Assembly: GCA_019359395.1 (NCBI GenBank)
Contig: JAHHHK010000001.1
Location: 124,001-188,000, forward strand
From: Komarekiella atlantica HA4396-MV6
GTDB taxonomy: Bacteria > Cyanobacteriota > Cyanobacteriia > Cyanobacteriales > Nostocaceae
DNA length: 64,000 nt
Direction of reading: 5' to 3'
A program made the translations under genes and the position numbers. The notes beneath the pieces are model-generated. The model was not told the DNA's origin. It made no database searches and was given only the letters and a program-made list of their open reading frames with translations. Below, piece after piece: positions 22,391 to 37,693 of the stretch (positions are counted from its first letter, which is position 1; each line of letters starts with the position of its first letter).

Positions 22391-25021
22391 TTAAAGTTTA
22401 AGATTTTGAAACTTTGTAAACTGTGGATTGAATAGAAGTTTTACAGTACCAGTTGGCCCGTTGCGGTGTTTAGCTACGATCGCTTCTGCAATTCCGCGAT
22501 CTGGAGTATCTGGAGAGTAGTATTCATCGCGGTACAACATTATTACTAAATCCGCATCTTGTTCAATCGAATTGTGAACTATGATGTTATTTGCAATAAA
22601 ATTGTGGAAATTAGGAACTGTTAAATCGTAAACTTCCTCTTCGCCGTCAGACTCTATGGAGGCAATTTCATCCCAGTAAATATCGCTCTTACCTAAGAGG
22701 GTTATTTTCTCAGATTTTACAACAGTAGCTAGTCTTGAAGCTCTTTCTCGACTCACATTCTGTTCATAAAGCGTTGTACCGCAATGAGCAACACCAAGTA
22801 AAGTCTGCATTTTGCGTATCGTTATCCCATACTGCTGCATTGATGGAACAGCGTATAGTTTCCATACATCATAAGGTATTACATCTCTGTTAGTGTTAGC
22901 AGAACGTAGTTGAAGATATTTGGCAATTTCTCCAAGAGCTAGTTTTTTATAACTACCAACTGCACCAATCATTTCAATAAACTTTTCTAAATCAGATTTA
23001 CCAGTTACCCAAACTTGATGTTGATCCCGTCCTTTATTCTCTTGAGAAACTATAGATAGTTTGGCATTAATATCAAACCTTAGTAAAAGTGACTGGACAT
23101 CTCTGGCCAATTTTCCACTACTGGAAGTGTAATAGACAGCAGGATAAAGGCATTTACCCTTGCTAGATTTAATGCAGCCGTCAATACTCCAGAGGTGTCG
23201 CAAGAAAAGAGCTATGGATTCTTGGGGTTGCTCAAAAATTTGATTGGGAATAAATTTTTCATGGGATCTCAAACCAAAAACATCAAGAGAATCTAGCCAT
23301 TCAGCTATAGGATTTCTGACGTTATGTGTTAAGTTGTATCCTGCTGTCAGATAGATTTGATACCAGTCTCGCTCTTGGCTAATACGAGGAATCACTGAAT
23401 TTCCAAAGGCCTCAGTTGCTAAGGATACCACAATATTAGCTAAATCGTTTTCTCTTGTGGTGTATTGAATAACGTGCCGAGGTAGAGTACAGCCATCTCC
23501 TATCAAATGTCCTAGCAAAGCAATTTCAGCCTTGCTCATAGTCTCGATATAAGAGCTGGGTAAGCATCTAGGCAAAGCAAGGCGATCGCCTATTCTTAAC
23601 TCGTCAAGTTGACGCCAGCCGTGAATTGTTAAAAACTTGTGATTTCCAGTTGCCCTAATTGTACGTCCTAGACGAGTTTTTAACAAAAATACGGGCTTTA
23701 CACCTGTAGAAAAAGCGTTGCTGACAATTGCTTTTTTAAGAAGCATTGTGGCTTCATCTAGCGCCCAAACTGCAAAACCAGATTTGCCTATTAATTTCTG
23801 AATTGGCACTTGTACGCCAGTATCCGCTAATGTCACTAAGCTATCACCTGTCAAGCAACCCGATTCTCTCAAATCCGACAACATTGGGCGCTTATTGGTA
23901 CGTGCTTCTACCCCTCGACTCAACTGAGATAAAGCAATAACTGGTACAGATAATTCACGCGCTAAACCTTTGAGTTGACGCGTAATTTTTGATAATTCTT
24001 GGACGCGGTTATCACCTCCTCCTTCCATTAATTGCAAGTAATCTATAACAATTAATCCTAGTTCAGTTCCTTGTTCTGCTTGCAGTCGCCGCGCCTGACT
24101 ACGCATTTGTGTGACTGTAATATTCGGCGTGTCGTCGATATAAATTGGCATTTCCGAGAGGATACCAATAGCACGGCTTAAAGGTTCCCACTGTGTTTGA
24201 CTGAGGCGTCCACTCCGCAGATAACTACTTTCAATTTGCGCTTCGCTAGCTAATAAACGTTGCGTTAGTTGCTCTTTAGACATTTCCAAGCTGAAAACAG
24301 CAACCGGTAATTTATAAGTAGCGGCAATGTTATGAGCAAGATTCAAACAAAAAGCCGTTTTTCCCATTGATGGCCTGCCAGCGACAATAATCAAATCAGA
24401 ACGCTGAAAGCCACTGGTCATGGCATCTAAATCGTAAAATCCGCAGGGAATACCAGGTAAGGCAATACCTTGATTGCGATCTTCAATATCCTGGAAATTA
24501 TTAATCAGGGTATCAGAAATGTGAATTAAACCTGATTGCGGACGTTCTTGAGTAACACCGAAAACTTTCTGTTCCGCTTGATCGAGGACGATTGGTAACT
24601 CGGTTTCTGTCTCGTAACCGAGATGTACAATTTCATTGCCTGCTTTGATTAACTGTCGCCGCAGGTATTTTTCCATCACCAACCCTGCCAAGGAGTCGAT
24701 GTTTACTGCTGACACTGTACGGTCTACCAGAGTTGCTAATTTATTTCTGCCACCAATGCGGGTAAGGATATCATGGTCAGCCAACCAACTTGTAACGGCG
24801 AGTAAGTCTGTGGGTTTACCTTGAGTGTGGAGCCTCACAGCTGCTTGATAAATATCTTTATGAGCGCTAATGTAAAAAGCTTCGGGAAGGAGGCGATCGC
24901 TAACTCGACTGATCGCTTCTGGATCTAGTAAAATTCCCCCCAAAATCGCTTCTTCAGCCTCAATATTTTGGGGTGGTAAGCGGTCAATACCATCGCCTTG
25001 AAAACGCAATTCTTCAGCCAT
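22391..25021 (-). CDS. dnaB: Replicative DNA helicase DnaB with in-frame intein
   Basis: The 876-residue precursor contains a normal DnaB split by an intein. Residues 1-150 are the primase-interacting N-terminal domain (LPPQNIEAEEAILGGILLDP). The RecA-like domain has Walker A GRPSMGKTAF (215-224), Walker B LIVIDYLQLM and SQLSRGVE. The intein follows LSDLRESG and covers residues 389-817. The helicase resumes at S818 with SIEQDADLVIMLYRDEYY and ends normally. After splicing the helicase would be 447 residues, the family's usual length. It unwinds DNA at the replication fork. The gene lies downstream of rplI on the same strand, a common bacterial order. Confidence 0.97.
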   Translation of the reverse strand: MAEELRFQGDGIDRLPPQNIEAEEAILGGILLDPEAISRVSDRLLPEAFYISAHKDIYQAAVRLHTQGKPTDLLAVTSWLADHDILTRIGGRNKLATLVDRTVSAVNIDSLAGLVMEKYLRRQLIKAGNEIVHLGYETETELPIVLDQAEQKVFGVTQERPQSGLIHISDTLINNFQDIEDRNQGIALPGIPCGFYDLDAMTSGFQRSDLIIVAGRPSMGKTAFCLNLAHNIAATYKLPVAVFSLEMSKEQLTQRLLASEAQIESSYLRSGRLSQTQWEPLSRAIGILSEMPIYIDDTPNITVTQMRSQARRLQAEQGTELGLIVIDYLQLMEGGGDNRVQELSKITRQLKGLARELSVPVIALSQLSRGVEARTNKRPMLSDLRESGCLTGDSLVTLADTGVQVPIQKLIGKSGFAVWALDEATMLLKKAIVSNAFSTGVKPVFLLKTRLGRTIRATGNHKFLTIHGWRQLDELRIGDRLALPRCLPSSYIETMSKAEIALLGHLIGDGCTLPRHVIQYTTRENDLANIVVSLATEAFGNSVIPRISQERDWYQIYLTAGYNLTHNVRNPIAEWLDSLDVFGLRSHEKFIPNQIFEQPQESIALFLRHLWSIDGCIKSSKGKCLYPAVYYTSSSGKLARDVQSLLLRFDINAKLSIVSQENKGRDQHQVWVTGKSDLEKFIEMIGAVGSYKKLALGEIAKYLQLRSANTNRDVIPYDVWKLYAVPSMQQYGITIRKMQTLLGVAHCGTTLYEQNVSRERASRLATVVKSEKITLLGKSDIYWDEIASIESDGEEEVYDLTVPNFHNFIANNIIVHNSIEQDADLVIMLYRDEYYSPDTPDRGIAEAIVAKHRNGPTGTVKLLFNPQFTKFQNLKL
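22571..23857 (-). other. DnaB intein (429 aa) with LAGLIDADG homing endonuclease
   Basis: The intein starts at C389 (CLTGDSLVTLAD, block A) and ends VPNFHNFIANNIIVHN, with catalytic His-Asn before S818 as the +1 nucleophile. Block B is GNHKFLTIHGW (TxxH replaced by GNHK). Two endonuclease motifs are visible: ALLGHLIGDGC and FLRHLWSIDGC. The insertion point and length equal those of the well-known Synechocystis DnaB intein, which is 429 residues at the same LRESG/SIEQD site. All splicing residues and both endonuclease motif acids are present, so it looks active. Confidence 0.95.
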
Positions 25022-25229: not shown

Positions 25230-25688
25230 TTAGCTAGCTACAACTTGAATATCGACTTGCGCCGTTACTTCAGAATGCAGCTTAATTTCGGCTTTATAAG
25301 TACCAAGGTGGTTAATATCGGGGATGGTAATACCACGCCGATCAACTTCTTGATTAGTAGCTGCTTGGATTGCCTCTGCAACTTCTTGAGTGGTGACAGT
25401 ACCGAAAATTGCTTCGTTTTCACCAACCTGCTTAGCAATTGTCAAGCTACTAATTTTTTCCAAAGCTGCTTTTTGCTCTAGAGCTTGTTCTCTAAGTTCT
25501 AATTGCCGTTGACGTTCTTGTTCACGACGGCGTTCTACTTGCTTGAGAATACCGGGAGTGGCATGGGTTGCCAATTTTTGGGGAAGCAAATAATTACGAG
25601 CATAGCCGGGAGCTACGTCCACTAAGTCGCCAGATTTGCCCAGCTTGCTGATATCCTGATTTAAAACTAACTGTACGCGTTTCACCAT
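25230..25688 (-). CDS. rplI: Ribosomal protein bL9
   Basis: The 152 residues start [20 protein letters not shown] and include the N-terminal signature [18 protein letters not shown]. They then have the long connecting helix ([18 protein letters not shown]) and the C-terminal domain ending [11 protein letters not shown]9 binds 23S rRNA at the base of the L1 stalk. It lies directly upstream of dnaB with a 208-bp repeat-containing gap, so the two may be co-transcribed. Confidence 0.98.
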
Positions 25689-25867
25689 CGTTTTCCGTTT
25701 TTCCTGTAAAATCTCATTAACTTAGGTTTGGGCAGGATAGCTCATGTGAGTGTAGCTGTATTCCAAGCGGCTTTGCCTATACCCTAAAGCTTACAGATCG
25801 TAGCGAAAGGTAGGGTGCGATCGCAACTATTAGCGCCACAAAAATCACAAAGCGTGTTAACTCTTGA

Positions 25868-26638
25868 CTAAAACCTGTCTTTCATTCCTCGTATCCGAGC
25901 AAAGGTTTGCACAGGATCACTGCTTTTAGCTGCTGATTGTAATGACGGCTGCTCCCAACGTAAAAAGGGATTAGTGCGCTTCTCAACTCCCAACAGCGAG
26001 GGAATTGTCGCTTCTTTTCGACTACGGTAAGCCTTGACTTCATCGTAGCGCTTCTTGAGATCGGCATTGTCGCCATCCACAGTCAAAGCAAATTGCAGAT
26101 TTTTTAAGGTGTATTCGTGGGCGCACCAGACGCGGGTATCGTCAGGCAAAGAGCGCAGTTTGCTTAAAGAGTCTACCATTTGCGTCGGTGTCCCTTCAAA
26201 TAAACGACCGCAACCCCCAGAAAACAGGGTATCACCACAGAATAAATCCCCAAAACCTGCTTGTTCTGGAGGAAAGTAGTAAGCAATGTGAGCGCGAGTA
26301 TGTCCGGGAACGAAGACTACTTCAGCTATTCGGTCTGCAAACTCAACGCGATCGCCTTGTTGCAAAAACACCTGTTGTCCAGGAATTCGCCCGCGATCCT
26401 CAGCTCCGCCATAAACTCTCACTTGCGGAAATTGTTCGATTAACTGCTTATTACCACCCACATGATCGTTATGGTGATGCGTATTGAAAATCGCTACCAA
26501 ATCAGCTTTTAATTCTGCCAGTTTCTCTAATACTGGTTCCGCCTCCGCTGGATCAACAACGGCGGCAATATTATGTTTGCTGTCGTGCAGTAAGAATATG
26601 TAGTTGTCTGAGAGTGCCTCAAGACGTATTACCTGCAT
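25868..26638 (-). CDS. gloB: Hydroxyacylglutathione hydrolase (glyoxalase II)
   Basis: The 256-residue metallo-beta-lactamase-fold enzyme hydrolyses S-lactoylglutathione to lactate and glutathione. The metal motif is [13 protein letters not shown]. Further ligands are in [26 protein letters not shown] and [12 protein letters not shown], and the C-terminal domain carries the substrate-binding KRTNPFLR. I chose the ATG at 26638 ([15 protein letters not shown]), where family members begin. The longer frame to 26683 adds 15 residues without homology. Confidence 0.96.
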
Positions 26639-27015
26639 TACCTCTGCCTCCCTCGCAAATAAATGTTTGGTATTGATTAGCAATCCTACGCCTCAGTAAT
26701 TAACAGCGTTACTTGCACAAGCTACATCAACTATTTATACTTTCACTATTATAGCTGTAGTACTTCATAAATCATGATAGTATACAACCGTACTTTCACG
26801 GTAAATATACTGACTAATAATAAAACTTACCTAGATTTATCAGTGAATTTTCTATAGGAATAACCATAATTATAAAGTTAAATTTATCATATTATTTTAT
26901 CTTTTAAAGATACAAAATAATTTCAGGATCAAAATTAGATTTTCGATGTTAAGCATAATACTACTGTACTGTGTATTTAAAATTCCATTCCATTATTTAG
27001 ATAAAATAAAAATGG
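26639..27015. other. AT-rich intergenic region before the first glycan operon
   Basis: About 375 bp separates the divergent gloB gene and the first glycosyltransferase. It is strongly AT-rich and has no ORF or clear hairpin. It must hold the promoter of the 27-37.7 kb operon, but I cannot pinpoint it. Confidence 0.5.
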
Positions 27016-28062
27016 ATGAAAAAAATGCATTTTTTAGATAAGCCATTAATTACAAATATATTTTTTAAACTTTTAAGTATTTCTAAAATAGAAGAATATA
27101 AATATCCTTATATTTTCGGAAAAGCTAAATCGAAACTTAGCAATTTAATCAAAAATAATCTAGATGATAAGCTATATGATCTAGTTTTTGTAATTCACGA
27201 TGCTAAAGGCTGGATACTCGAAGCAATATGCAGAGAAATTGCTACGTATTTTCCAGGTAATTATTTTTTTGCATATTCTTTGACCGATCTACCTCAAGCT
27301 AAAGCATACTTTTTTGCTCACTACTCTTTTTTACCCATAGCTTTGAAGCAAAACCCGATTCTTTGGCAAAGCAAGCTACTCGTTTGGTATACCCATCCAA
27401 AAGATATTGGTAGAAGTAATGAAGAACTTGTTTATACACTAAATCAAAGTACTAAAGTTATATGTACCTGTTCCCAATTTGTAGAGCTACTTCAAAACCA
27501 AGGAGTAAACAGTAAAAAAACAACATTTATTCTGGGTGGTGCTGACCCTGCAATTTTTCAACCTCATCAACGCTCAAATGGCGCTGTCGGTTTTTGTACA
27601 GCATATTATGCCAGAAAATCTCCAGAATTAATATTTAATATTATCAAATCAATGCCCCATAGAAAATTTATTATTCTGGGGAGAAATTGGGATGAATACG
27701 AAAGATTTGAAGAACTAATTGCTTTACCAAACCTATCTTATATTCAAGCTCCTTATTCTGATTACCCTAAGTACTATGCTGAGATGGATGTTTTTGTTTC
27801 ACCTGCGAAATTAGAAGGCGGCCCTATACCTTTAGTTGAAGCGATGATGTGTAACATTGTGCCTGTGGCGAGTAGAACAGGATTTGCTCCTGATATAATT
27901 AATCATGGAGATAATGGCTTTATCTTTGATATTGATAGTCCCTGTGAAGTGGTATGTAAATTAATCGATCAGGCTTTTAATATTCAAGCTAATATCAGTC
28001 AAACTGTTGAACATTTGAGTTGGAAAAACTTTTCTTTAGAAGTGCAAGAACTTTTAAAATAA
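27016..28062 (+). CDS. Glycosyltransferase, GT4-like (GT-B fold)
   Basis: The 348-residue protein has a C-terminal GT-B half with FIILGRNWDEYERFEEL and YAEMDVFVSPAKLEGGPIPLVEAMMCNIVPVASRTG. The EGGPIPLVEAM block is the donor-binding E-x7-E motif of GT4 enzymes. The N-terminal half is divergent and gives no acceptor clue. It opens an operon-like plus-strand run; the next gene starts 7 bp after its stop. It lacks a signal peptide and membrane segment, as expected for a cytoplasmic enzyme acting on lipid-linked sugars. Confidence 0.85.
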   Translation: MKKMHFLDKPLITNIFFKLLSISKIEEYKYPYIFGKAKSKLSNLIKNNLDDKLYDLVFVIHDAKGWILEAICREIATYFPGNYFFAYSLTDLPQAKAYFFAHYSFLPIALKQNPILWQSKLLVWYTHPKDIGRSNEELVYTLNQSTKVICTCSQFVELLQNQGVNSKKTTFILGGADPAIFQPHQRSNGAVGFCTAYYARKSPELIFNIIKSMPHRKFIILGRNWDEYERFEELIALPNLSYIQAPYSDYPKYYAEMDVFVSPAKLEGGPIPLVEAMMCNIVPVASRTGFAPDIINHGDNGFIFDIDSPCEVVCKLIDQAFNIQANISQTVEHLSWKNFSLEVQELLK

Positions 28063-28069
28063 CTATTAT

Positions 28070-28909
28070 ATGAACTCAAAAAGAGGCTTTATAACAATTC
28101 TGACAGGTCTTTACTCTTTTCAAGATTGTATTCACTTTTTAGCGGCAATTAGAAAATTTCATCAGGAACCAATAATTATTCTCATTGATCAGGTTCCCAC
28201 AATTCTCTACCCTTTACTCAAAGCTTTCAAAAATGTAATTTTAAAGCCAGCCCCGGCAAATGAAAATACGGTTTTAGCATCACGACAAGCAAAACTCGCT
28301 CTATATGAAGCCTCTGAGTTTGAGCAAACAATTTATCTAGATTCAGATATTTGCTTACTTTGTGATATCAATGATGTGTTTGAGTATTTAGATGAGTATG
28401 ATTTTTTATTAACTGAAGATGTGCAACCTTATATTGTTAAAGCCACAAATTTATTGCGAGGAAAACAACAAGAGCTTTTGCCCAATGTTTTGCCAATACT
28501 GCAATCTGTAGGTTTGCCTTTACAAGAAGATAGTGTGCAGTATAACGGCGGTTTTATGGCTTTCCGTAAAACAGAGGTAACTAAGGTATTTTTTGATAAA
28601 TTTAAATACTATTTTGAAATTGTTAAAAACAATCAAGATAAATTACTTTTAAAAGACCAAGGAGCTTTTGCTTCTGCGATCGCATCTGTACACCCTAAGA
28701 TGAAAATACTACCACCTACCTACAATTATCTCAGTAAATGGCAGGACGCTTATAATATTCAAGATGAAATTAAAGTACTTCACTGTACGTATCCTTACCG
28801 CCCTCAATATGCTAAAAATATTACTCGTTCTTTGTATACAAGGGTTTTTGACAGATTCGCTAAAGTATTTTTGCCGAATCAAGTTACAAATCCTTGGCGC
28901 ACTAAATAA
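28070..28909 (+). CDS. Glycosyltransferase, GT-A fold, GT8-like
   Basis: The 279-residue protein has a nucleotide-sugar GT-A core: an N-terminal MNSKRGFITILTGLYSF strand, then AKLALYEASEFEQTIYLDSDICLL with the DSD metal motif near residue 97. QYNGGFMAFRKTEV and KDQGAFASAI form the acceptor-side motifs, and a late HC (VLHCTYP) may be a further metal or diphosphate contact. It resembles GT8 or the NTP-transferase-like enzymes of surface glycan loci. It is tightly spaced with both neighbours (7 and 17 bp). Confidence 0.8.
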   Translation: MNSKRGFITILTGLYSFQDCIHFLAAIRKFHQEPIIILIDQVPTILYPLLKAFKNVILKPAPANENTVLASRQAKLALYEASEFEQTIYLDSDICLLCDINDVFEYLDEYDFLLTEDVQPYIVKATNLLRGKQQELLPNVLPILQSVGLPLQEDSVQYNGGFMAFRKTEVTKVFFDKFKYYFEIVKNNQDKLLLKDQGAFASAIASVHPKMKILPPTYNYLSKWQDAYNIQDEIKVLHCTYPYRPQYAKNITRSLYTRVFDRFAKVFLPNQVTNPWRTK

Positions 28910-28926
28910 AAACCAGTGAAAAAATA

Positions 28927-30090
28927 GTGAAAAAAATTTCAAAAATATCACTGTTGGTTTCAGACTTATCAAGTGCGGCTATTTTGCGTGCATACTTGAT
29001 AGCAGCAGCCCTGAAAACTTTAGGGCTGGAAGTTGAAATTATGGGGTTTTTATTTGGGAAAAACTTATATCGAAATTTACCATCAGAGTTAAATGTTTAT
29101 CATTTACCTGGCAAAAATTTTCCAGATTTTTTTGGCGAAATGAGGAAACTTTTACCAAAAATCAATGGAGATATAATTTATGCAATCAAACCACAAATAG
29201 CAAGTTTTGGAGTTGCATTACTCAAAAAACTATCTAGCCAAAAACTAGTAATTTTAGATATCGATGATTGGGAACTCAGCTGGCATGGTGGTGATGATTG
29301 GTATTATCGTCCTACACTCAAACAATTAGCTAGAGAATTATTAAAATCAGACGGCGCACTCAGAAATCCTTATCATCCTCTATACGTTAAATGGATGGAA
29401 GGTTTAGTAAATCGCGCTGACGCTGTGACTGTACATACTACATTTTTACAAAAGCGTTTTGGCGGTACATTTGTTCCCAACGGTAAAGATATTTGCTTAT
29501 TTGATCCTGCTCAATATGATCCTGAATCGAGTCGAATTCGCTATGGTTTATCTGAATATCGTATTTTAATGTTTCCTGGTGCACCAAGACCTTATAAAGG
29601 TTTAGAAGATGTTCTAATAGCGTTAGATAAAATTAATCAGCCAGACTTAAAACTGGTGATTGTGGGTGGCAGTCCTTATGATGATTATGATCAGCAACTT
29701 CAACAACAGTGGGGACGCTGGATTATCAAACTGCCAAAGTATCCAGCTGATATTATGCCTGATTTAGTAACTGCTGCTCATATTGTTGTTGTTCCTCAGC
29801 GAGATACTCTTGAAACTCGCGCTCAATTCCCCCTTAAGTTGACAGATGGGATGGCAATGGCTAAACCTGTATTGTCAACTCGCGTAGGAGATATTCCCAA
29901 AATTTTAGGTAATACTGGTTATTTAGTTGAGCCTGCTTGTCCTGAACAAATTGCTGAACAAATTCAATCGATATTTCAAGATTTAGAGTCAGCGAATCAG
30001 CTAGCTCTCAAGGCAAGAGAAAGATGTGTGGAGCACTATAGCATAGAAGCTATGGCTTCTACGCTTAAGTCAATAATTTCTCGGTTATAA
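28927..30090 (+). CDS. Glycosyltransferase, GT4 family
   Basis: The 387 residues start at GTG (MKKISKISLLVSDLSSAAILRAYLI). The C-terminal half has the GT4 signs MFPGAPRPYKGLEDVLIAL, LVIVGGSPYDDYDQQLQQ, RAQFPLKLTDGMAMAKPVLSTRVGDIPKIL and GYLVEP. The usual EGxPxxxxEAM block is modified to PLKLTDGMAMAKPVL, which occurs in some GT4 subfamilies. An acidic-aromatic stretch in the middle (DIDDWELSWHGGDDWYYRP) probably binds the acceptor. Confidence 0.85.
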   Translation: MKKISKISLLVSDLSSAAILRAYLIAAALKTLGLEVEIMGFLFGKNLYRNLPSELNVYHLPGKNFPDFFGEMRKLLPKINGDIIYAIKPQIASFGVALLKKLSSQKLVILDIDDWELSWHGGDDWYYRPTLKQLARELLKSDGALRNPYHPLYVKWMEGLVNRADAVTVHTTFLQKRFGGTFVPNGKDICLFDPAQYDPESSRIRYGLSEYRILMFPGAPRPYKGLEDVLIALDKINQPDLKLVIVGGSPYDDYDQQLQQQWGRWIIKLPKYPADIMPDLVTAAHIVVVPQRDTLETRAQFPLKLTDGMAMAKPVLSTRVGDIPKILGNTGYLVEPACPEQIAEQIQSIFQDLESANQLALKARERCVEHYSIEAMASTLKSIISRL

Positions 30091-30229
30091 ATTGGAGGTA
30101 ATTTATATGTGGAAATAATAAAAGATATGGATAAGGGTGTACTTGTGTTTTCCATAATTTAAAGCATGAACATTATTTAGTTTTATTTATTTAATGATTA
30201 GCTAATTAATGAATAATTTTAATTAATAA

Positions 30230-32500
30230 GTGAATAGTAAAGAATATCCCATGTCTACCAGAAAACTACTACTAAGATTTGCTAAACCATATCCAGGTTT
30301 GATTCTGTTAACAATATTATTAGGATTTTCTGGAGCTTTATTTAATGGAGTCAGCACGGCTTTAATTGTGCCAGTGGTTTTAAGAATTGTGGGGCAAGAA
30401 GTAGATTTAAGTAGTGCCCCTACTATTCTCAAAGCAATAATGTCTCCCTTTGAAAATATTCCAGTGAACTACCGCACAGGAGTAATGGCTGGAGCAATTA
30501 TATTCATAATTATTTTAAAAAATTTAGCGGCTTATGCCAGTGCTTTAGCATCAAGCTCTTTAACACGAGCACTGACAGCAGATATGCGAGAAGCCGGACT
30601 AAGATTATTACTAGAAATTGATATAGATTATTATGCCAAGACAAAAGTTGGTGATTTAATTAATCGACTTGGTGGTGAAATTGGTCGTGCAGCCGGTGCT
30701 GTAGGTAGTACAGTCAAGTTAGGTATTTTAGGGATTACTATTTTAGTTTTTGTTGGGTTGTTATTGTCAATTTCTTGGCAGTTAACGATTGCTTCAACGA
30801 TTTTGCTTTCGTTGGTAACTTTAATCAATCAGTATGCTATTTATCGTTCTAAAAAGTTTGGTAAACAGCTTAGTGATATGTCTAAAGCATATTCAATTAC
30901 TGTGCTGGAAACTCTGAACGGAGTTCGGTTAGTCAAGGCGACTGGAAATGAAGAAAAAGAATATCAACGAATTAAAAAGCTAATCCGCGATCGCGAAAAA
31001 GCAGATTTTCAATCTCAGGTTAATTCGGGAGCGATTACACCCCTGAGTGAAGTCATGGGTATTACAGCTTTACTGCTGATTATACTTTTGAGCAAAATTT
31101 TCTTTGCAGACCAAATTACTTCCCTGGCCCCTGTACTTCTAACATATCTATTCTTACTGCTGCGAGTACTGCCATTAATTTCTGAGTTAAATACTATTCG
31201 CAGCAACTTTGCAAGTACTGCTACTAGTGTGGATGTAGCTAGTGAATTTTTGAGCTTGGATGATAAGCCATTCATGGGTAACGGTAAGCTTCCCTACACG
31301 AAATTGCAAGAGGGAGTGCGATTTAATTCCCTTTCCTTTGCTTACCCCAGTCATGAAAAGTTGGTGCTCAAAGATGTGAATTTATACTTACCACACGGCA
31401 CAACGTTAGCATTGGTAGGCGGTTCCGGCGCTGGTAAATCTACTTTGGCAGACCTGTTACCCAGATTTTATGACCCAACATCTGGCTGCATAACCATTGA
31501 TGGCACTGATTTGCGCGAGTTTGATGCTGTATCCCTGCGAAAGCGGATGGGAATTGTTAGCCAAGATACTTTTCTGTTCAATGACTCGGTAGGGAACAAC
31601 ATTGCTTATGGACGGCCAGAGGCTACCCAAGATGAAATTATCGCAGCGGCAAAGCGGGCAAATGCTTATGAATTTATCAGTAAATTACCCCAAGATTTTG
31701 ATACCCTAATTGGCGATCGCGGCGTCATGTTGTCTGGTGGACAAAGACAAAGATTAGCGATCGCTCGCGCCCTGCTACAAAATCCAGACATTCTCATACT
31801 TGATGAAGCCACCAGTGCTTTAGATACCGTTTCTGAACGCTTAGTACAAGCTGCGCTTGATGATCTTAGTCGCGATCGGACAACTCTAGTAATTGCTCAC
31901 CGTCTTTCTACAGTTCAAAAAGCCGATCAAATTGCTGTATTAGATCAAGGACGTGTGGTAGAGGTGGGAACCCATGAAGAACTTTTGCAAAAGGGTGGTT
32001 ACTACTCACGCCTCTATTCAATGCAATTTGCTGAACGTCCAGAAGCTATTGTTAAACGCAATCAAAGCTTACTCCGTATCTCTCACGAAATTCGGACGCA
32101 GTTGAACTCAATGATTGGGTTTTTACGCTTATTACTTGATGAAATGGTAGACAATTCTCAAGAGCGGCAAGAATTAATTGAAGAATCCTACAAATCAGCC
32201 TGGAGAATTCTCAACACAATTGATGTTTTCGACGATGTTGTTAATATGCAATTGAAAGGAAAATTCCTCTCAATTTCTCAGCAAAATCAGAATATTGCCA
32301 CCAGTCAATATGAAACCTTTAATCATATTTCCGTTGAGTTTAGAACTTGTCTTAATCCTATACTTAGCTCTCTCCGCTCTCTAGCCGATAATTTAATATA
32401 TACCCATAAAGAACAAAATAAATTAGTTACAGAAACTTATGAATCTGCTATATATCTGCTAGATAACTTAGAAAAATTTGAGGATAGTATTACCGCCTAA
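30230..32500 (+). CDS. ABC exporter (MsbA/HepA type) with C-terminal tandem HisKA-like repeats
   Basis: The 756-residue protein is a half-size ABC exporter with six membrane helices in residues 15-330. The ATPase domain follows with Walker A GGSGAGKST, signature LSGGQRQRLAIARAL and Walker B ILILDEATSALD, ending near residue 600. It resembles HepA, the exporter of heterocyst envelope polysaccharide. The unusual part is residues 610-756. The first repeat is a HisKA-like hairpin with H619 in RISHEIRTQLNSMIGFL. The second repeat, NHISVEFRTCLNPILSSL, has valine at the histidine position (V702). No HATPase domain follows. The start may be the ATG at 30251. It sits in the middle of the glycosyltransferase operon. 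Confidence 0.93.
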   Translation: MNSKEYPMSTRKLLLRFAKPYPGLILLTILLGFSGALFNGVSTALIVPVVLRIVGQEVDLSSAPTILKAIMSPFENIPVNYRTGVMAGAIIFIIILKNLAAYASALASSSLTRALTADMREAGLRLLLEIDIDYYAKTKVGDLINRLGGEIGRAAGAVGSTVKLGILGITILVFVGLLLSISWQLTIASTILLSLVTLINQYAIYRSKKFGKQLSDMSKAYSITVLETLNGVRLVKATGNEEKEYQRIKKLIRDREKADFQSQVNSGAITPLSEVMGITALLLIILLSKIFFADQITSLAPVLLTYLFLLLRVLPLISELNTIRSNFASTATSVDVASEFLSLDDKPFMGNGKLPYTKLQEGVRFNSLSFAYPSHEKLVLKDVNLYLPHGTTLALVGGSGAGKSTLADLLPRFYDPTSGCITIDGTDLREFDAVSLRKRMGIVSQDTFLFNDSVGNNIAYGRPEATQDEIIAAAKRANAYEFISKLPQDFDTLIGDRGVMLSGGQRQRLAIARALLQNPDILILDEATSALDTVSERLVQAALDDLSRDRTTLVIAHRLSTVQKADQIAVLDQGRVVEVGTHEELLQKGGYYSRLYSMQFAERPEAIVKRNQSLLRISHEIRTQLNSMIGFLRLLLDEMVDNSQERQELIEESYKSAWRILNTIDVFDDVVNMQLKGKFLSISQQNQNIATSQYETFNHISVEFRTCLNPILSSLRSLADNLIYTHKEQNKLVTETYESAIYLLDNLEKFEDSITA

Positions 32501-32504
32501 AATC

Positions 32505-33713
32505 ATGAACAATGCTAATTCAAAAAAACATTACGTTTTTTTCATTGGTGAAGAATTACCTAAGCCAGAGGCTCACTTAGTACAGTCCACAAATGCAGCT
32601 AACGCCGCCGCTAATTTGGGATATTCAACAGTTTTGGTATACCCTAACAAAGAATCGAGAGCTATTAAACTAGCTAAGTTTTTTCGTCCTTTTCAACCTC
32701 AAAAAACTCCAATAGAACTGATTAAATATTATAACCTTCATGACAAATTAAAGGTTGCTCCCTTACCAATGCCTTGGCCGATTGATCATTTTCAAAGAAA
32801 ATTTACTGACTCTAATACCATTGCTACTAAATACTATTTACCATTTCATATACTTCCTACTACCAAACTTGTCCACAGTCGCAACTGGAATTTTGTCAAA
32901 GCTGCTATTAAAAATGGCGTTCCTGCAATTTACGAACATCATCATCACGAAGATAAGTTATTCGAGCCAGAAATTGTTAAAAGTCCGCTATTCCAAATTG
33001 CTGTCACCGTTGTAGACACCATCCGTGAAACCATGATTAAAAATGGCATTCCACCAGAAAAAGTAATTAAGTTGCACAACGGTTTTAACCGCTTATTTAT
33101 GCAGAGACAGCCAGAAAAAGCGGCGGAATGGCGCAAAAAACTATTGAAAGAGCGATCGCATTTGGTAGTGTATGCAGGAGCGCTACAACAATTTAAAGGT
33201 ATTGATGTACTAATTAATGTAGCTAGTGAAATGCCAAATGTGCAATTTGCTTGTGCAGGTGGTAAGTCAACAGAAGTCGAATACTATCAGCAATTAGCGA
33301 ACGAAAAGCAAGTTCACAACATTACATTTTTGGGCTATGTTTTGCATGATGAGTTAGTATCTTTGCTGCAAGCAGCCGATATTTTAGCTCATCCTCATTG
33401 TTCAGGAAAAGCAGCAACTTTTACATCTCCCCTAAAGCTATTTGACTACTTCGCCTCTGGAACTCCCATTGTAGCTACAGAAATTCCCTCACTAATAGAG
33501 TTTCAAGATACTAAAGCCATCGCTGCTTGGTGTGAGTCAGATAATCCTACCAAATTCGCCGAATGTCTCAAGCAAGTTCTACAAACTCATCCCAAAAAAG
33601 TAGATGGTTATCCAGATAGTGTTGAGTTTGTCAAGCAATTTTCTTGGGAAAATAGAGCGGCAAAAATCCTTAGTTACGTCGATGCATCTCTACTCCCTCC
33701 ACTTATTGCTTAA
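32505..33713 (+). CDS. Glycosyltransferase, GT4 family
   Basis: The 402-residue product starts MNNANSKKHYVFFIGEELPKPEAHLVQSTNAANAAANLGY, typical of a GT-B N-terminal domain. IYEHHHHEDKLF lies in the acceptor half. Donor-half motifs are LVVYAGALQQFKGIDVLINVA, QFACAGGKSTEVEYYQQL, ADILAHPHCSGKAATFTSPLKLFDYFASGTPIVATEIPSL and FSWENRAAKIL. The ATG at 32505 lies 4 bp after the exporter stop. An upstream TTG start would overlap that gene. Confidence 0.87.
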   Translation: MNNANSKKHYVFFIGEELPKPEAHLVQSTNAANAAANLGYSTVLVYPNKESRAIKLAKFFRPFQPQKTPIELIKYYNLHDKLKVAPLPMPWPIDHFQRKFTDSNTIATKYYLPFHILPTTKLVHSRNWNFVKAAIKNGVPAIYEHHHHEDKLFEPEIVKSPLFQIAVTVVDTIRETMIKNGIPPEKVIKLHNGFNRLFMQRQPEKAAEWRKKLLKERSHLVVYAGALQQFKGIDVLINVASEMPNVQFACAGGKSTEVEYYQQLANEKQVHNITFLGYVLHDELVSLLQAADILAHPHCSGKAATFTSPLKLFDYFASGTPIVATEIPSLIEFQDTKAIAAWCESDNPTKFAECLKQVLQTHPKKVDGYPDSVEFVKQFSWENRAAKILSYVDASLLPPLIA

Positions 33714-33754
33714 TTAAAAATGGGGACTAATTCTTGACTTTTGACCCTTGTACA

Positions 33755-33772
33755 GACGCTATTCATCGCGTC
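33755..33772. repeat. Degenerate copy of the gacgcgattaatcgcgtc palindrome
   Basis: The copy reads gacgctattcatcgcgtc, preceded by cttgacttttgacccttgtaca and followed by tctactcctgac, as at 13550-13580 and 14847. It sits in the 96-bp gap inside the glycosyltransferase operon. Confidence 0.7.
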
Positions 33773-33809
33773 TCTACTCCTGACAAATAACTAATAACTA
33801 ATAAATAAA

Positions 33810-34769
33810 ATGAATATAAAAACTGTAGGCATGATTAGCAGCTATCGAGGTTTAGAAACTAGAGCCGATTGGCTGTGGCAGCAAACCCCCAATCAATTTG
33901 GAATTTGGGGAAATATGCAAATGTTAGCACTAGCGCCAAAACCAGATTTTTTAATAATGTATCAGTTCGATTTTCCCCAGAAATTGCCACATAAATCTTG
34001 GCTAGATAGTTTTCGCAAACCGCAACAAACATCAGAATTAAACATCGATTCTCTATTGCGTAATGTCAATAAAGAGCGCATTATTTATTTACTCAGAGAA
34101 CCACCCTTAAATGAAATTGTCGAAATAAACAATCATAACTATCAACAAGCCCAGAAGTATTGTGGCTACGTTTCTGGCCCTGATGATTTTGCTCCCACTC
34201 CCGACTATATGCCTGCTATTTGGTATCACTCAAATACCTTTCAGGATTTAAATGAAATGCCATGTCCCCAAAAAGTTGCCCCATGCAGTTGGATTACTTC
34301 TGGAATTAGCCGCACAGCTAACCACCGCCAGCGTTTAGACTTCTTGCAGTCCTTAGAATCTAGTGAAATTAAGTTTGATTTATATGGGCGTAACTTACCC
34401 ACATGGGCGAAAACATTAGGAGAACTTAGTAACAAGTGGTACGGGATAGCTCCTTACTATTACAATCTATCAATTGAAAACTATGCTGATAATAATTGGT
34501 ATGTGAGTGAAAAACTTTGGGATAGTTTGCTTGCTTGGTGTCTACCAATTTACTATGGTGGCCCGGCTGCTGATAAATTATTGCCACCGGGTAGTTTTTT
34601 AAGATTGCCTAGTTTGGATGAAAAAGGCATTGCCTACATCAAAGAAGTCACTGCTACACCTGATGCTTGGTATGCTGCCAAGGATGCGATCGCAGAAGCA
34701 CGTCAAATTATATTACACAAATTAAATCTGCTCAACTGGTTATCAAATTTTGTTATTCAACACTCATAA
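33810..34769 (+). CDS. Glycosyltransferase family 10-like (alpha-1,3-fucosyltransferase type)
   Basis: The 319-residue protein carries the GT10 signature in its C-terminal half (about residues 215-262): YYYNLSIENYADNNWYVSEKLWDSLL followed by WCLPIYYGGPAADKLLPPGSFLRL. The E-N-x7-Y-V-S/T-E-K core binds the GDP-sugar. KFDLYGRNL and RQRLDFLQSL precede it, as in bacterial family members. It probably adds a fucose-like or other GDP-linked sugar to the glycan made by this operon. No GDP-fucose synthesis genes are in the window. The next gene starts 3 bp after its stop. Confidence 0.85.
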   Translation: MNIKTVGMISSYRGLETRADWLWQQTPNQFGIWGNMQMLALAPKPDFLIMYQFDFPQKLPHKSWLDSFRKPQQTSELNIDSLLRNVNKERIIYLLREPPLNEIVEINNHNYQQAQKYCGYVSGPDDFAPTPDYMPAIWYHSNTFQDLNEMPCPQKVAPCSWITSGISRTANHRQRLDFLQSLESSEIKFDLYGRNLPTWAKTLGELSNKWYGIAPYYYNLSIENYADNNWYVSEKLWDSLLAWCLPIYYGGPAADKLLPPGSFLRLPSLDEKGIAYIKEVTATPDAWYAAKDAIAEARQIILHKLNLLNWLSNFVIQHS

Positions 34770-34772
34770 ACT

Positions 34773-35747
34773 ATGGATGGTATTTGTACGCTTGGCAATG
34801 ATTATGTTTTTGATCAACTGGTGGCTTTGCTCAACAGTATTGATGTGATATTGGGTAAAGAAACTCCTGTTTGTATCTATCCTTTTGATAACCAAACACA
34901 GCGGATTGCTGATGAAATAGCTAAGCGCCCTAATGTATTTATTTACGATAATCAAGAATCAATTACCCGCTGGGATAAATTTATGCTAGAGGCTAGTCCT
35001 GCTAGTATGAACAAAAATAAATATAGAATTTATGGCGGTCATCGCCGCTTTTGTGCATTTGATGGCCCTTTTGATAGGTTTGTTTATCTGGATGCCGATA
35101 CTCTAGTGATGAATTCACTAGATTTTATTTTTGAAAAATTAGATGAATACAACTGTGTTGTCTACGATTTCCAGTTTAAATACCCAGATAAAGTTTATAA
35201 CGTCAATTCAGATAAATTACTCCAAGTCTTTCCAGAAAATCGTCTAAAAACTGAAATTTTTTGCTCAGGATTTTACGCTTCTAAAAAAGGTTTATTTGAC
35301 CAATCTAAACTAGAAGAATTGTTATGTTATCTGAGAGTAGGTGAGAGAGAAATACTCTATCCCACTGGAGATCAGCCAGTTCTCAACTATATGTTTATGA
35401 GGTCTGGCATACCAGTTTACAATCTTGCTCATCACTTACCAAATAATCAAGTTACAGGCTGCTCTGTTACTTCTAAACATTTTGAAGAACAAAATAAAAT
35501 TCTTTATGATAAAGGTAATCGACTAACTTATCTGCATTATATTGGTATTCCTCCTAATATTAATCAAGCAGTATGTGCCGGAGAAAATATTGAGTTTCCC
35601 TATCGAGATTTGTTTCTTCACTATCGTTACCTACACGAACCAGATAAGCGTCCAATTTTTAACAATTCTTCTAAGCGTTATGACGCTCCACCACCAAGTT
35701 TACTTACAAGAGCTTTGCGAAAATTAAAGTTAATTAATCAAGGTTAA
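34773..35747 (+). CDS. GT-A type glycosyltransferase, paralogue 1 of 3
   Basis: The 324-residue protein starts MDGICTLGNDYVFDQLVALLNSID. It has a central motif HRRFCAFDGPFDRFVYLDADTLV with the DAD metal triad, then FCSGFYASKKGLF, GDQPVLNYMFMRSG and RLTYLHYIG. The same blocks in the same order occur in the next two genes, so the three arose by tandem duplication. The DxD and the late tyrosine-leucine-histidine block fit a GT8-like retaining fold, but I do not know a characterised homologue. It may add sequential similar residues to a chain. Confidence 0.8.
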   Translation: MDGICTLGNDYVFDQLVALLNSIDVILGKETPVCIYPFDNQTQRIADEIAKRPNVFIYDNQESITRWDKFMLEASPASMNKNKYRIYGGHRRFCAFDGPFDRFVYLDADTLVMNSLDFIFEKLDEYNCVVYDFQFKYPDKVYNVNSDKLLQVFPENRLKTEIFCSGFYASKKGLFDQSKLEELLCYLRVGEREILYPTGDQPVLNYMFMRSGIPVYNLAHHLPNNQVTGCSVTSKHFEEQNKILYDKGNRLTYLHYIGIPPNINQAVCAGENIEFPYRDLFLHYRYLHEPDKRPIFNNSSKRYDAPPPSLLTRALRKLKLINQG

Positions 35748-35751
35748 TCCT

Positions 35752-36642
35752 ATGAGTCGGGGAATTTATATAGTTGCCAATGACCGCGTAATAGATAATG
35801 CGATCGCTTTACTCAATAGCATTCGTCACTATGATCAAGAAGTGACTGTTTATCTCATTCCTTTTAATGACAACTATCACAAGGTAGCAGAGCAACTTGC
35901 CAGTTTACATAATGTGCAAGTTTTCCCAGACCTAGAACTTCTTGAGAGCTTAACTAAACGCATAGGGGAAATTTTTGACAGAGATTTTCTCGCATTACCT
36001 AATAAAATGCGTAAACTTGTGGCATGGTTTGGGCCTTTAGATGAGTTTATTTATATTGATACTGACATTGTCGTTTTTGAAAAAATCGTAGACAATCTAG
36101 ACAAGCTTTCAGAAGTTGATTTCTTCTGTTGCGATTATCATTATGCCAATGACAAGCTACGAAATGTCTTTTCCCCATTCGTAATAGAGCATCAAATTTT
36201 TTCAAATACCCAATTAGAAGACGTTTTTAACAGCGGCTTTTGGGCTTCGAGAAAGGGAGTTATTACCGAGCAACAGATGGATGAAGCTTTACGCGAGTGT
36301 GCAATGCACCGTGAATATTTTGATTTTTCTGAAGGAGTTACAGACCAACCTATTCTGAATTATCTTGTTCTGAAGCTGATTGCTAAACGTGGTAATCTCG
36401 TCAAAATTCCTGGGGGCGGGCCTGGTAGTTGGGCAGGTTCGCAAAATTTTCAACAGCAAGATTACGCTCTCTATGACCGAGGACAACGACTAAAATATCT
36501 CCACTGGGCTGGTACGCGGATTAAAAATGGTAGTCCCTATTGGCAATTGTGGGAACACTATCGTTACCTTCATGAAGGTAAATTTGCTTTCATTCCAAAA
36601 TTGACTCGTCGTTTATTTCCCTTTGTTTCTGCTCGTATTTAA
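35752..36642 (+). CDS. GT-A type glycosyltransferase, paralogue 2 of 3 (most divergent)
   Basis: The 296-residue protein has the same plan as its neighbours. MSRGIYIVANDRVIDNAIALLNSIR replaces the first block. MRKLVAWFGPLDEFIYIDTDIVV carries DTD instead of DAD. DVFNSGFWASRKGVI, TDQPILNYLVL and RLKYLHWAGTR follow. The CAFDGPFD motif of the other two is changed to VAWFGPLD, so its donor may differ. It starts 4 bp after the previous stop. Confidence 0.8.
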   Translation: MSRGIYIVANDRVIDNAIALLNSIRHYDQEVTVYLIPFNDNYHKVAEQLASLHNVQVFPDLELLESLTKRIGEIFDRDFLALPNKMRKLVAWFGPLDEFIYIDTDIVVFEKIVDNLDKLSEVDFFCCDYHYANDKLRNVFSPFVIEHQIFSNTQLEDVFNSGFWASRKGVITEQQMDEALRECAMHREYFDFSEGVTDQPILNYLVLKLIAKRGNLVKIPGGGPGSWAGSQNFQQQDYALYDRGQRLKYLHWAGTRIKNGSPYWQLWEHYRYLHEGKFAFIPKLTRRLFPFVSARI

Positions 36643-36658
36643 TATTAGGAGTATCCCA

Positions 36659-37693
36659 ATGACTGATGGTATTTACATCCTAGGTAATGATGTGGTCTAT
36701 GACCAAGTAGTTGCATTACTCAACAGTATAGAGGCTAATGCTGGTAGAAAAATTCCTGTTTGTATAATTCCATATAATGAACGGTTAGACAAAATACGAG
36801 AAGAGATTGCAGCTAGAGATAATGTCACTTTATTTGAAAACTCCGCTGCTATTACTTACTGGGATAACTTTGCAACTCAGATATGGAAAAATTATCCAAG
36901 AGCACAAAAAACTTGGCGAGAATGGGGTTTTTCTGATTTATATGAATTACCCATGCACCGTAAATTTTGTGCATTTGATGGCCCCTTTGATAAATTTATT
37001 TATTTTGATGCAGATACCTTATTAATGGGGCCTGTAGATTATGTATATGAAAAGTTAGATAGTTATGATTGGGTAGTAAATGATTTTCAGTATAAGTCTG
37101 ACTTAAAGTACATTTTTGATGGTTCATCAGAACTTTTACAGCAAGTTTTCAATCAAGAAAAATTACAGTCTCAAATCTTCTGTGCTGGTTGGTTTGCATC
37201 TAAAAAACATATTTTTTCTCAAGATATGTTAGTAGATATCCTCAACAAATTAGAGGCTGGTGAAGCTGATGTAATGGCTTTAGTAGCACCTGACCAATCT
37301 TTATTTAACTACATGGTATTGAGGAGTGGAATTTCATATTATAACTTTGCTTGCCATGACTCGGAGAAAGCGACTGGTAATCATTGGAGTTCTAAATTTT
37401 ATGTGGTAGATAATGTCCTCTACGACCAAGGACGGCGGCTGACATATCTGCACTATATGAGCATTGGTGCATCAACATTTACTCAACTTTGCTCTGGTGA
37501 GGATGTCAATATTCCATACAGAGACGTATTTTTGCATTATCGGTATTTAACTTCGCCAGAACAAAGACCCCAAAGTTTTAGGGTTGAGAGTCCGTTAATG
37601 CGTCTGCAAAAGACTACCAGTAGTTTTATTCAGCAAAAAGTTAACAACATTAAGCTCAACTATCGCAATTTCAAAGATAAAATTACTCAATAA
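36659..37693 (+). CDS. GT-A type glycosyltransferase, paralogue 3 of 3
   Basis: The 344 residues begin MTDGIYILGNDVVYDQVVALLNSIE. MHRKFCAFDGPFDKFIYFDADTLL, FCAGWFASKKHIF, DQSLFNYMVLRSG and RLTYLHYMS closely match paralogue 1. An insertion near residue 70-95 (YWDNFATQIWKNYPRAQKTWREW) is partly shared with it. The ATG at 36659 follows a ribosome-binding site (taggag); the longer frame from 36623 overlaps the preceding gene. It is the last gene of the plus-strand glycan operon. Confidence 0.82.
   Translation: MTDGIYILGNDVVYDQVVALLNSIEANAGRKIPVCIIPYNERLDKIREEIAARDNVTLFENSAAITYWDNFATQIWKNYPRAQKTWREWGFSDLYELPMHRKFCAFDGPFDKFIYFDADTLLMGPVDYVYEKLDSYDWVVNDFQYKSDLKYIFDGSSELLQQVFNQEKLQSQIFCAGWFASKKHIFSQDMLVDILNKLEAGEADVMALVAPDQSLFNYMVLRSGISYYNFACHDSEKATGNHWSSKFYVVDNVLYDQGRRLTYLHYMSIGASTFTQLCSGEDVNIPYRDVFLHYRYLTSPEQRPQSFRVESPLMRLQKTTSSFIQQKVNNIKLNYRNFKDKITQ

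Follow-up and report, generated by a model that had tools for sequence, protein, structure and literature searches.

HisKA-like hairpins at the end of a cyanobacterial ABC exporter and their possible role

An exporter gene of the ATP-binding cassette (ABC) type in the cyanobacterium Komarekiella atlantica HA4396-MV6 raises the question of what a piece resembling part of a histidine kinase does at the end of a transporter. The gene lies in a 64,000-nucleotide stretch of contig JAHHHK010000001.1 (positions 124,001 to 188,000), which was analysed here and is referred to as the window. An earlier inspection of its letters, the sequence-only reading, had noted two similar helical units behind an exporter of the MsbA/HepA type, and had suggested that they might dimerise, receive phosphate from another kinase, or tie export to a phosphorelay. 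With a rough probability of 0.58, we favour the reading that a hairpin of the dimerisation and histidine phosphotransfer (DHp) type was captured from a GAF-type histidine kinase and now works on the exporter's ATPase domain as a docking module and bundle that lacks catalytic activity. The features needed for the argument are the following.

30251..32500, plus strand: ABC exporter with pseudo-DHp tail, 749 amino acids from the ATG (756 if translation starts at the GTG at 30230)
30422..31150, plus strand: transmembrane domain (ABC_membrane, PF00664), residues 65-307, Pfam E 8.1e-21
31367..31816, plus strand: nucleotide-binding domain (ABC_tran, PF00005), residues 380-529, Pfam E 4.3e-35
32039..32263, plus strand: unit 1, HisKA/DHp-like hairpin, residues 604-678, predicted helices 604-636 and 643-678 (Pfam HisKA above cutoff; AlphaFold2 model)
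32084..32086, plus strand: codon CAC of H619, the phosphoacceptor position, tyrosine in many relatives
32282..32494, plus strand: unit 2, second hairpin homologous to unit 1, residues 685-755, predicted helices 685-719 and 726-755 (hhalign with controls; AlphaFold2 model)
32333..32335, plus strand: codon of V702, the unit 2 equivalent of the phosphoacceptor, unconstrained in relatives (alignment of 116)

Two homologous hairpins behind the ATPase domain

In the exporter open reading frame (ORF), Pfam matched HisKA (PF00512) at residues 611 to 665 with an E value of 1.9e-10 and 41.1 bits against a cutoff of 26.9, which settled the profile search proposed in the sequence-only reading in its favour. 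No HATPase domain was found by Pfam in this ORF, as had been claimed, and the next gene encodes a glycosyltransferase. The histidine assigned to the H-box is encoded by CAC at 32084-32086 (H619), and its counterpart in unit 2 is the valine V702 at 32333-32335, both as first read. Unit 2 by itself matched no Pfam family. Profiles of the two units, built from 36 relatives, were aligned by hhalign without gaps over 64 columns, with a probability of 99.5% and a score of 107.7, whereas 30 column shuffles of unit 2 scored at most 16.3 and the reversed profile scored 10.0. Because the profile score far exceeds these controls, chance likeness of the two helical units was ruled out, and the tail is, as judged by the profiles, a tandem of two homologous hairpins.

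AlphaFold2 was run as a monomer prediction on the tail alignment, with residue 1 of the tail corresponding to residue 601 of the protein. The model features four helices (tail residues 4-36, 43-78, 85-119, and 126-155) forming two hairpins, with a mean predicted local distance difference test (pLDDT) value of 85.2 and a predicted template modelling (pTM) score of 0.79, in agreement with what the sequence-only reading had anticipated. The best structural matches along the whole tail, as obtained with VIA-align, were mostly designed four-helix bundles, joined by other helical proteins; the absence of DHp entries among these matches proves nothing. The model also matches 1tqg, and such bundle matches are common for helical proteins. 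Foldseek returned no match to the tail model at E <= 0.001. Among the sequence matches of the tail to solved structures, the entries for Spike glycoprotein look like chance matches of coiled coils. RetS of Pseudomonas (6dk7, named Regulator of Exopolysaccharide and Type III Secretion; E 0.0094) is one of the few solved sequence relatives, its similarity to the tail being that of any HisKA. RetS is a membrane hybrid kinase that acts by contact of its kinase region with another kinase.

As to the exporter itself, both PF00664 and PF00005 exceeded the Pfam cutoff, and the translation contains the Walker and signature motifs GGSGAGKST, LSGGQ, and LDEATSALD. The protein carries membrane and ATPase domains on one chain and aligns to chains of MsbA, Sav1866, and P-glycoprotein. 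The ATG at 30251 is the likelier start compared with the GTG at 30230, since the ORFs of 102 out of 116 relatives begin at its column and the near-identical locus L011 has a stop codon between the positions of the GTG and the ATG. The nearest curated exporter model is that of another cyanobacterial ABC exporter, the heterocyst envelope exporter HepA (NCBIfam NF045513); it matched residues 11-600 with 566 bits, i.e., below its equivalog cutoff of 725 bits, and its alignment stops at the start of the tail. The same genome's next exporter (L017, 617 amino acids) is 40% identical and has no tail. Taken by family, the protein is probably an exporter of sugar polymers.

The acceptor column and the H-box

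For analysis of the H-box, 201 loci were taken, of which 197 contained an exporter ORF (none came from L200, L247, L255, and L299). After removal of the partial ORF of L227, the remaining 196 ORFs represented 168 distinct proteins, comprising 116 of the Nostocaceae clade (65 from genomes of the family and 51 named records placed by tree) and 52 outside it. As these proteins were collected by their similarity to the tail, its frequency cannot be read from them. Residue 619 is histidine in 93 and tyrosine in 69 of the 168, the other six having glycine (two) or glutamine, asparagine, phenylalanine, and arginine (one each); a ring residue, H or Y, is thus found in 162. Within the Nostocaceae clade the counts are 91 H, 21 Y, and 4 others, and outside it 48 Y, 2 H, 1 F, and 1 R. 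The H and Y codons at this position (CAC, CAT, TAC, and TAT) are one transition apart.

The surroundings of the acceptor are far more constant. R622, at H+3, is arginine in 167 of 168 proteins, E645 is conserved in 162, N626 in 161, and G630 and D637 in 160 each; E620 is glutamate in 160 and aspartate in 5. Besides core hydrophobic residues, the most conserved positions of unit 1 include many polar ones (R622, E645, N626, S618, E620, D637, and E648), and position 619 ranks only 26th of 62 by entropy. Of the H-box conservation expected from the sequence-only reading, the motif therefore stood while the acceptor did not. The proline that kinases carry at H+5 is absent from all 168 proteins, its place being taken mostly by arginine (100) or glutamine (59). 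In unit 2, the acceptor-equivalent position shows 11 different letters among 116 proteins (D 28, V 20, N 15, E 14, I 10, and six others), so read from this alignment unit 2 keeps nothing there; E703 (88/116) and R705 (104/116) are conserved. The single-hairpin tyrosine form of L218 reaches 16.8 bits with PF00512, below the cutoff of 26.9, and for L287 this family was not listed at E 0.01. Pipelines that count PF00512 matches as kinases would miscount such exporters, as the window's protein passes and tyrosine forms like that of L218 fall below.

Changes of the acceptor were placed on a FastTree phylogeny of the exporter core (residues 8-600, without the tail). At least 12 changes between H and Y were required, or 17 when the other letters were treated as one extra state. 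A two-state likelihood model placed Y at the midpoint root (0.998) and H at the ancestor of the Nostocaceae clade (0.999), with 9 changes from H to Y and 3 from Y to H, a reconstruction that depends on the fast tree and on the midpoint root. Because the acceptor is tyrosine or another residue in 75 of the 168 distinct proteins, a phosphoacceptor role of the tail is not supported in general by the alignment, and a phosphorelay as its general role was ruled out by the acceptor counts. The suggestion that the tail receives phosphate thus failed as a general reading, the repeated H/Y changes and the lack of a kinase in 118 neighbourhoods (see below) pointing the same way. Since there is no ATPase, the hinge proline is gone from every copy examined, and the acceptor is often tyrosine, the tail would no longer function as kinase machinery; it probably works by binding protein and not by passing phosphate.

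A working phosphoacceptor may nevertheless be considered for those lineages that have histidine. The Nostocaceae tandem would then be a monomeric bundle resembling histidine phosphotransfer (HPt) domains, with one histidine that is phosphorylated in trans and coupled to export, which we judge quite improbable. Phosphotransferases of the HPt/DHp type, such as CheA P1, share with the modelled tail the four-helix bundle of two hairpins, and the tandem has mostly one histidine in Nostocaceae; on the other hand, the acceptor of the exporter tail is not conserved, it is absent from unit 2, and the protein is an exporter. Spo0B and ChpT are phosphotransferases of the DHp type that form a four-helix bundle of two hairpins. 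A bolder scheme, to which we give a very small chance, has the duplication convert a DHp hairpin that dimerises into a monomeric HPt-like bundle in which the acceptor switches between Tyr and His and export is set by phosphate on the tail, delivered to His via a two-component relay and to Tyr perhaps via a tyrosine kinase of polysaccharide export.

Distribution, selection, and origin of the tail

The whole protein was present in all five genomes searched in the genus, including the genome of the window. In Nostocaceae, a tail match at E <= 1e-8 was obtained in 204 of 217 genomes. The best match was 2e-20 or better in 188 of the 217, so that the fusion does recur in relatives, as the sequence-only reading had proposed to check; in the other 16 of the 204 it was 4e-13 or weaker, and these matches were taken as kinases. 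Relatives across Nostocaceae have an open frame here, which ruled out a frameshift or a single-genome artefact, a possibility that had been raised at the outset. A search of the order with the tail profile matched 328 of 388 genomes at 1e-12, kinases included. Outside Nostocaceae, many matches span unit 1 only, the ORF of some 670-720 residues being closed there by a stop codon. When 40 such places were fetched, 38 proved to be exporters with one hairpin after the ATPase domain and two (L247 and L255) histidine kinases instead of exporters; L227 is a single-hairpin exporter cut by a contig end, and L234 and L250 have extra residues after the hairpin. The tandem was also found in three genomes of another family of the class (L287-L289).

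In a sample of the phylum, 75 of 386 genomes matched the whole protein at 1e-150. The tail is kept in 70 of these 75, one of the 70 being degenerate (L340); in the other 69 it was called by the range of the match, with ORF length and the tail matches of the family search used instead for G155, G119, and G150. The fraction of 70/75 may be somewhat high, as tailless exporters of weak similarity could miss the 1e-150 threshold. According to these searches, the fusion extends throughout Nostocaceae, and it also occurs, there mostly with a single hairpin, in much of the order and in a few families of its class. A pattern scan of genome contigs, the sole look outside cyanobacteria, found 115 relatives, and the 80 of these that were listed are all cyanobacterial by record title. 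The tailless exporters of L309, L336, and L337, which are approximately 61% identical to that of the window and end shortly past the ATPase domain, are natural losses of the tail.

Selection was estimated from the ratio of nonsynonymous to synonymous substitution rates (dN/dS) in five pairs of relatives. Unit 1 gave values of 0.00, 0.01, 0.01, 0.07, and 0.09 and the ATPase domain 0.03-0.10, while unit 2 ranged from 0.00 to 0.32 and the linker from 0.14 to 0.55; all of these are rough, because some proteins occur in more than one pair (the window's protein in four), each region is short, and some dS values lie above 1. As gauged by these ratios, the tail is maintained by selection, and unit 1 most strictly. 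A drifting, functionless remnant of a fusion would be consistent with the loss of the tail in some lineages and with the faster evolution of unit 2 and the linker, but it does not fit the purifying selection on unit 1, which is comparable to that on the ATPase domain, nor the retention of unit 1 across families and orders; we consider this the least probable of the accounts.

Within its own genome, the best tail match outside the exporter is the HisKA domain of the GAF-HisKA-HATPase kinase L002 (E 7e-13, the next match being at 1.6e-6), with 34% identity over 101 residues. With profiles of unit 1, built from the single-hairpin and from the Nostocaceae forms, 54-75 bits were obtained for L002 and for the kinases of L247, L255, and L299, compared with 41 bits or less for six other loci of the window's own genome. 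GAF, HisKA, and HATPase occur together in L002, in L299, and in one ORF each of L247 and L255. Capture from a GAF-type histidine kinase would be the simplest account of the tail's origin. In L247 (7093-9756, plus strand) and L255 (5396-8050, plus strand), two kinase genes with very similar HisKA segments lie adjacent to each other; the second ORF has about 300 residues, with HisKA and HATPase and without the GAF domain of the first.

A hairpin tree from 59 columns, with the acceptor column left out, placed unit 1 of Nostocaceae on the kinase side (95/99.9) and grouped unit 2 with single hairpins from other families, a placement that would fit a second capture. In the approximately unbiased (AU) test, neither duplication within the lineage (p 0.346) nor a grouping of unit 1 with the single hairpins (p 0.311) was rejected; for the tandem of L287-L289 relative to that of Nostocaceae, the p values were 0.366 with all unit 2 copies grouped and 0.253 with the four hairpins of L287 and L289 grouped. 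The alternatives not being rejected, the histidine of Nostocaceae may therefore have been regained, kept, or brought in anew.

Possible roles of the tail and its genomic setting

Four-helix bundles arise when DHp hairpins pair, and exporters of this type function as dimers in which the ATPase domains close on ATP. According to the reading that we favour, a DHp (HisKA) hairpin from a GAF-type cyanobacterial histidine kinase became attached to a homodimeric-type glycan exporter at the end of the nucleotide-binding domain, with the helical hairpin and the polar H-box face being retained. The four-helix bundle would form between two subunits if there is one hairpin, i.e., by dimerisation in trans, and within each chain if there are two. 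The paired hairpins may hold or gate the two ATPase domains and so bias how these domains meet, and the conserved H-box face around R622 would be the docking site for a putative partner, for which a response regulator, the DHp of a kinase, or another part of the exporter are candidates.

The same hairpins could instead be a purely mechanical clamp, tying or stabilising the nucleotide-binding domains and binding no signalling partner. DHp hairpins are inherently dimeric, a bundle can be completed in the single-hairpin form only with a second chain, and hardly any two-component genes lie nearby in 118 loci, points that all suit a clamp. A clamp alone would not, however, be expected to fix the H-box face, with its polar positions R622, E645, N626, S618, E620, D637, and E648, and we regard this explanation as unlikely, though deserving serious consideration.

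A closer parallel to a docking role is offered by DivL of Caulobacter and other alphaproteobacteria, a pseudo-histidine-kinase and thus likewise a repurposed kinase part. According to the available portion of PMC4211667, Tyr550 takes the place of the H-box histidine in DivL; binding of DivK~P was unchanged in the Y550H variant and was disrupted by R553A (H+3) and by T557N (H+7), and the bending of the helix is attributed to Pro555 at H+5. DivL and the exporter tail have in common the HisKA fold, an arginine at H+3, the expectation of no phosphotransfer, and, in 69 of the 168 proteins, a tyrosine acceptor. DivL possesses PAS and catalytic and ATP-binding (CA) domains, a proline at H+5, and a threonine at H+7 (PMC4211667, same portion), whereas the exporter hairpin has neither a CA domain nor the proline and mostly has asparagine at H+7; moreover, H and Y alternate between relatives of the exporter, and the window's copy has H. 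By analogy, the fixed H+3 residue and the missing H+5 proline fit a contact made without the bending that serves switching in kinases.

Several observations weigh against the docking reading. Two-component genes were sought in the 118 loci by phmmer at 1e-6 with a single query each for the kinase catalytic part and the receiver, a search that misses loci cut by contig ends, ORFs under 110 amino acids, and distant kinases; it gave no kinase match in any locus, and receiver matches in 12, only 3 of them within three genes of the exporter. Histidine is kept in 91 of the 116 clade proteins, which a pure docking role does not require. Y550H harmed growth and cell shape despite unchanged binding (PMC4211667, same portion), and by analogy the letter at the acceptor may matter otherwise; as H+7 is usually asparagine here and T557N broke binding in DivL, the docking face, as far as this comparison reaches, is not that of DivL in detail. 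The bundle arrangement depends on a single monomer prediction, and generic bundles yield similar fold matches to the tail model. Finally, five of the 75 exporter genomes of the phylum sample have no tail (L309, L336, L337, L338, and L339), although the exporters of L338 and L339, only 46-47% identical, are perhaps paralogues. Given these five tailless exporters and one more with a degenerate tail, export probably does not depend on the tail.

If the docking reading is correct, a signalling hairpin has moved from a sensor kinase to a transporter, where it was retained for its shape and contacts and gave up its chemistry. Recurrent H/Y changes within a nearly fixed H-box amount to a natural mutagenesis series that can separate phosphotransfer from docking. 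If a partner does bind, glycan export in a large cyanobacterial group would be controlled post-translationally by a two-component piece.

Extra C-terminal domains are known from other ABC exporters. For a HisKA-derived exporter tail with alternating H and Y, no description was found in the titles and abstract openings of the literature searched, and the available portion of PMC1183210 makes no mention of an exporter-HisKA fusion. A second ABC exporter occurs in the three genomes that also have the L287-L289 tandem, at L333 (7166-9757, minus strand), L334 (7277-9868, minus strand), and L335 (8392-11010, minus strand). It carries a ComFB domain (Pfam E 6e-13, 7.6e-13, and 4.2e-15, respectively) between the ATPase domain and HisKA-like hairpins of the tyrosine type. 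According to the available part of PMC12313861, ComFB binds c-di-AMP and c-di-GMP. The domain content suggests an exporter regulated by cyclic dinucleotides, and it suggests that this end of the protein is a place where regulation attaches; the ComFB domain is not found in the window's protein.

The exporter is surrounded by glycosyltransferase genes, as follows.

28927..30090, plus strand: glycosyltransferase immediately upstream of the exporter (cluster directly upstream in 113/118 loci)
32505..33713, plus strand: glycosyltransferase immediately downstream of the exporter
33810..34769, plus strand: GT10-type (fucosyltransferase-like) gene, PF00852 E 2.2e-10
34773..35747, plus strand: GT8-type glycosyltransferase gene, PF01501 E 1.4e-06

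One glycosyltransferase cluster lies directly upstream of the exporter in 65/65 Nostocaceae loci and 48/53 others. Genes clustering with the window's GT10-like gene were found in 61/65 and 17/53 loci, respectively, and those clustering with its GT8-like gene in 62/65 and 14/53. Judged by position and family, the cargo is likely a glycan or a lipid-linked glycan. In L308, a glycosyltransferase and the exporter of the locus are each broken into two frames in one genome.

In the window (25230-37693) and many of the 118 loci, the glycosyltransferase/exporter locus adjoins rplI, dnaB, and a hydroxyacylglutathione hydrolase gene; gloB was present in the fetched stretch of 56/65 Nostocaceae loci and 36/53 others. 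The dnaB gene of the window (22391-25021, minus strand) seems, as read by eye, to carry an intein extending from CLTGDSLV to VVHNS, and dnaB ORFs of relatives occur in long (867 amino acids, L074) and short (452 amino acids, L302) forms.
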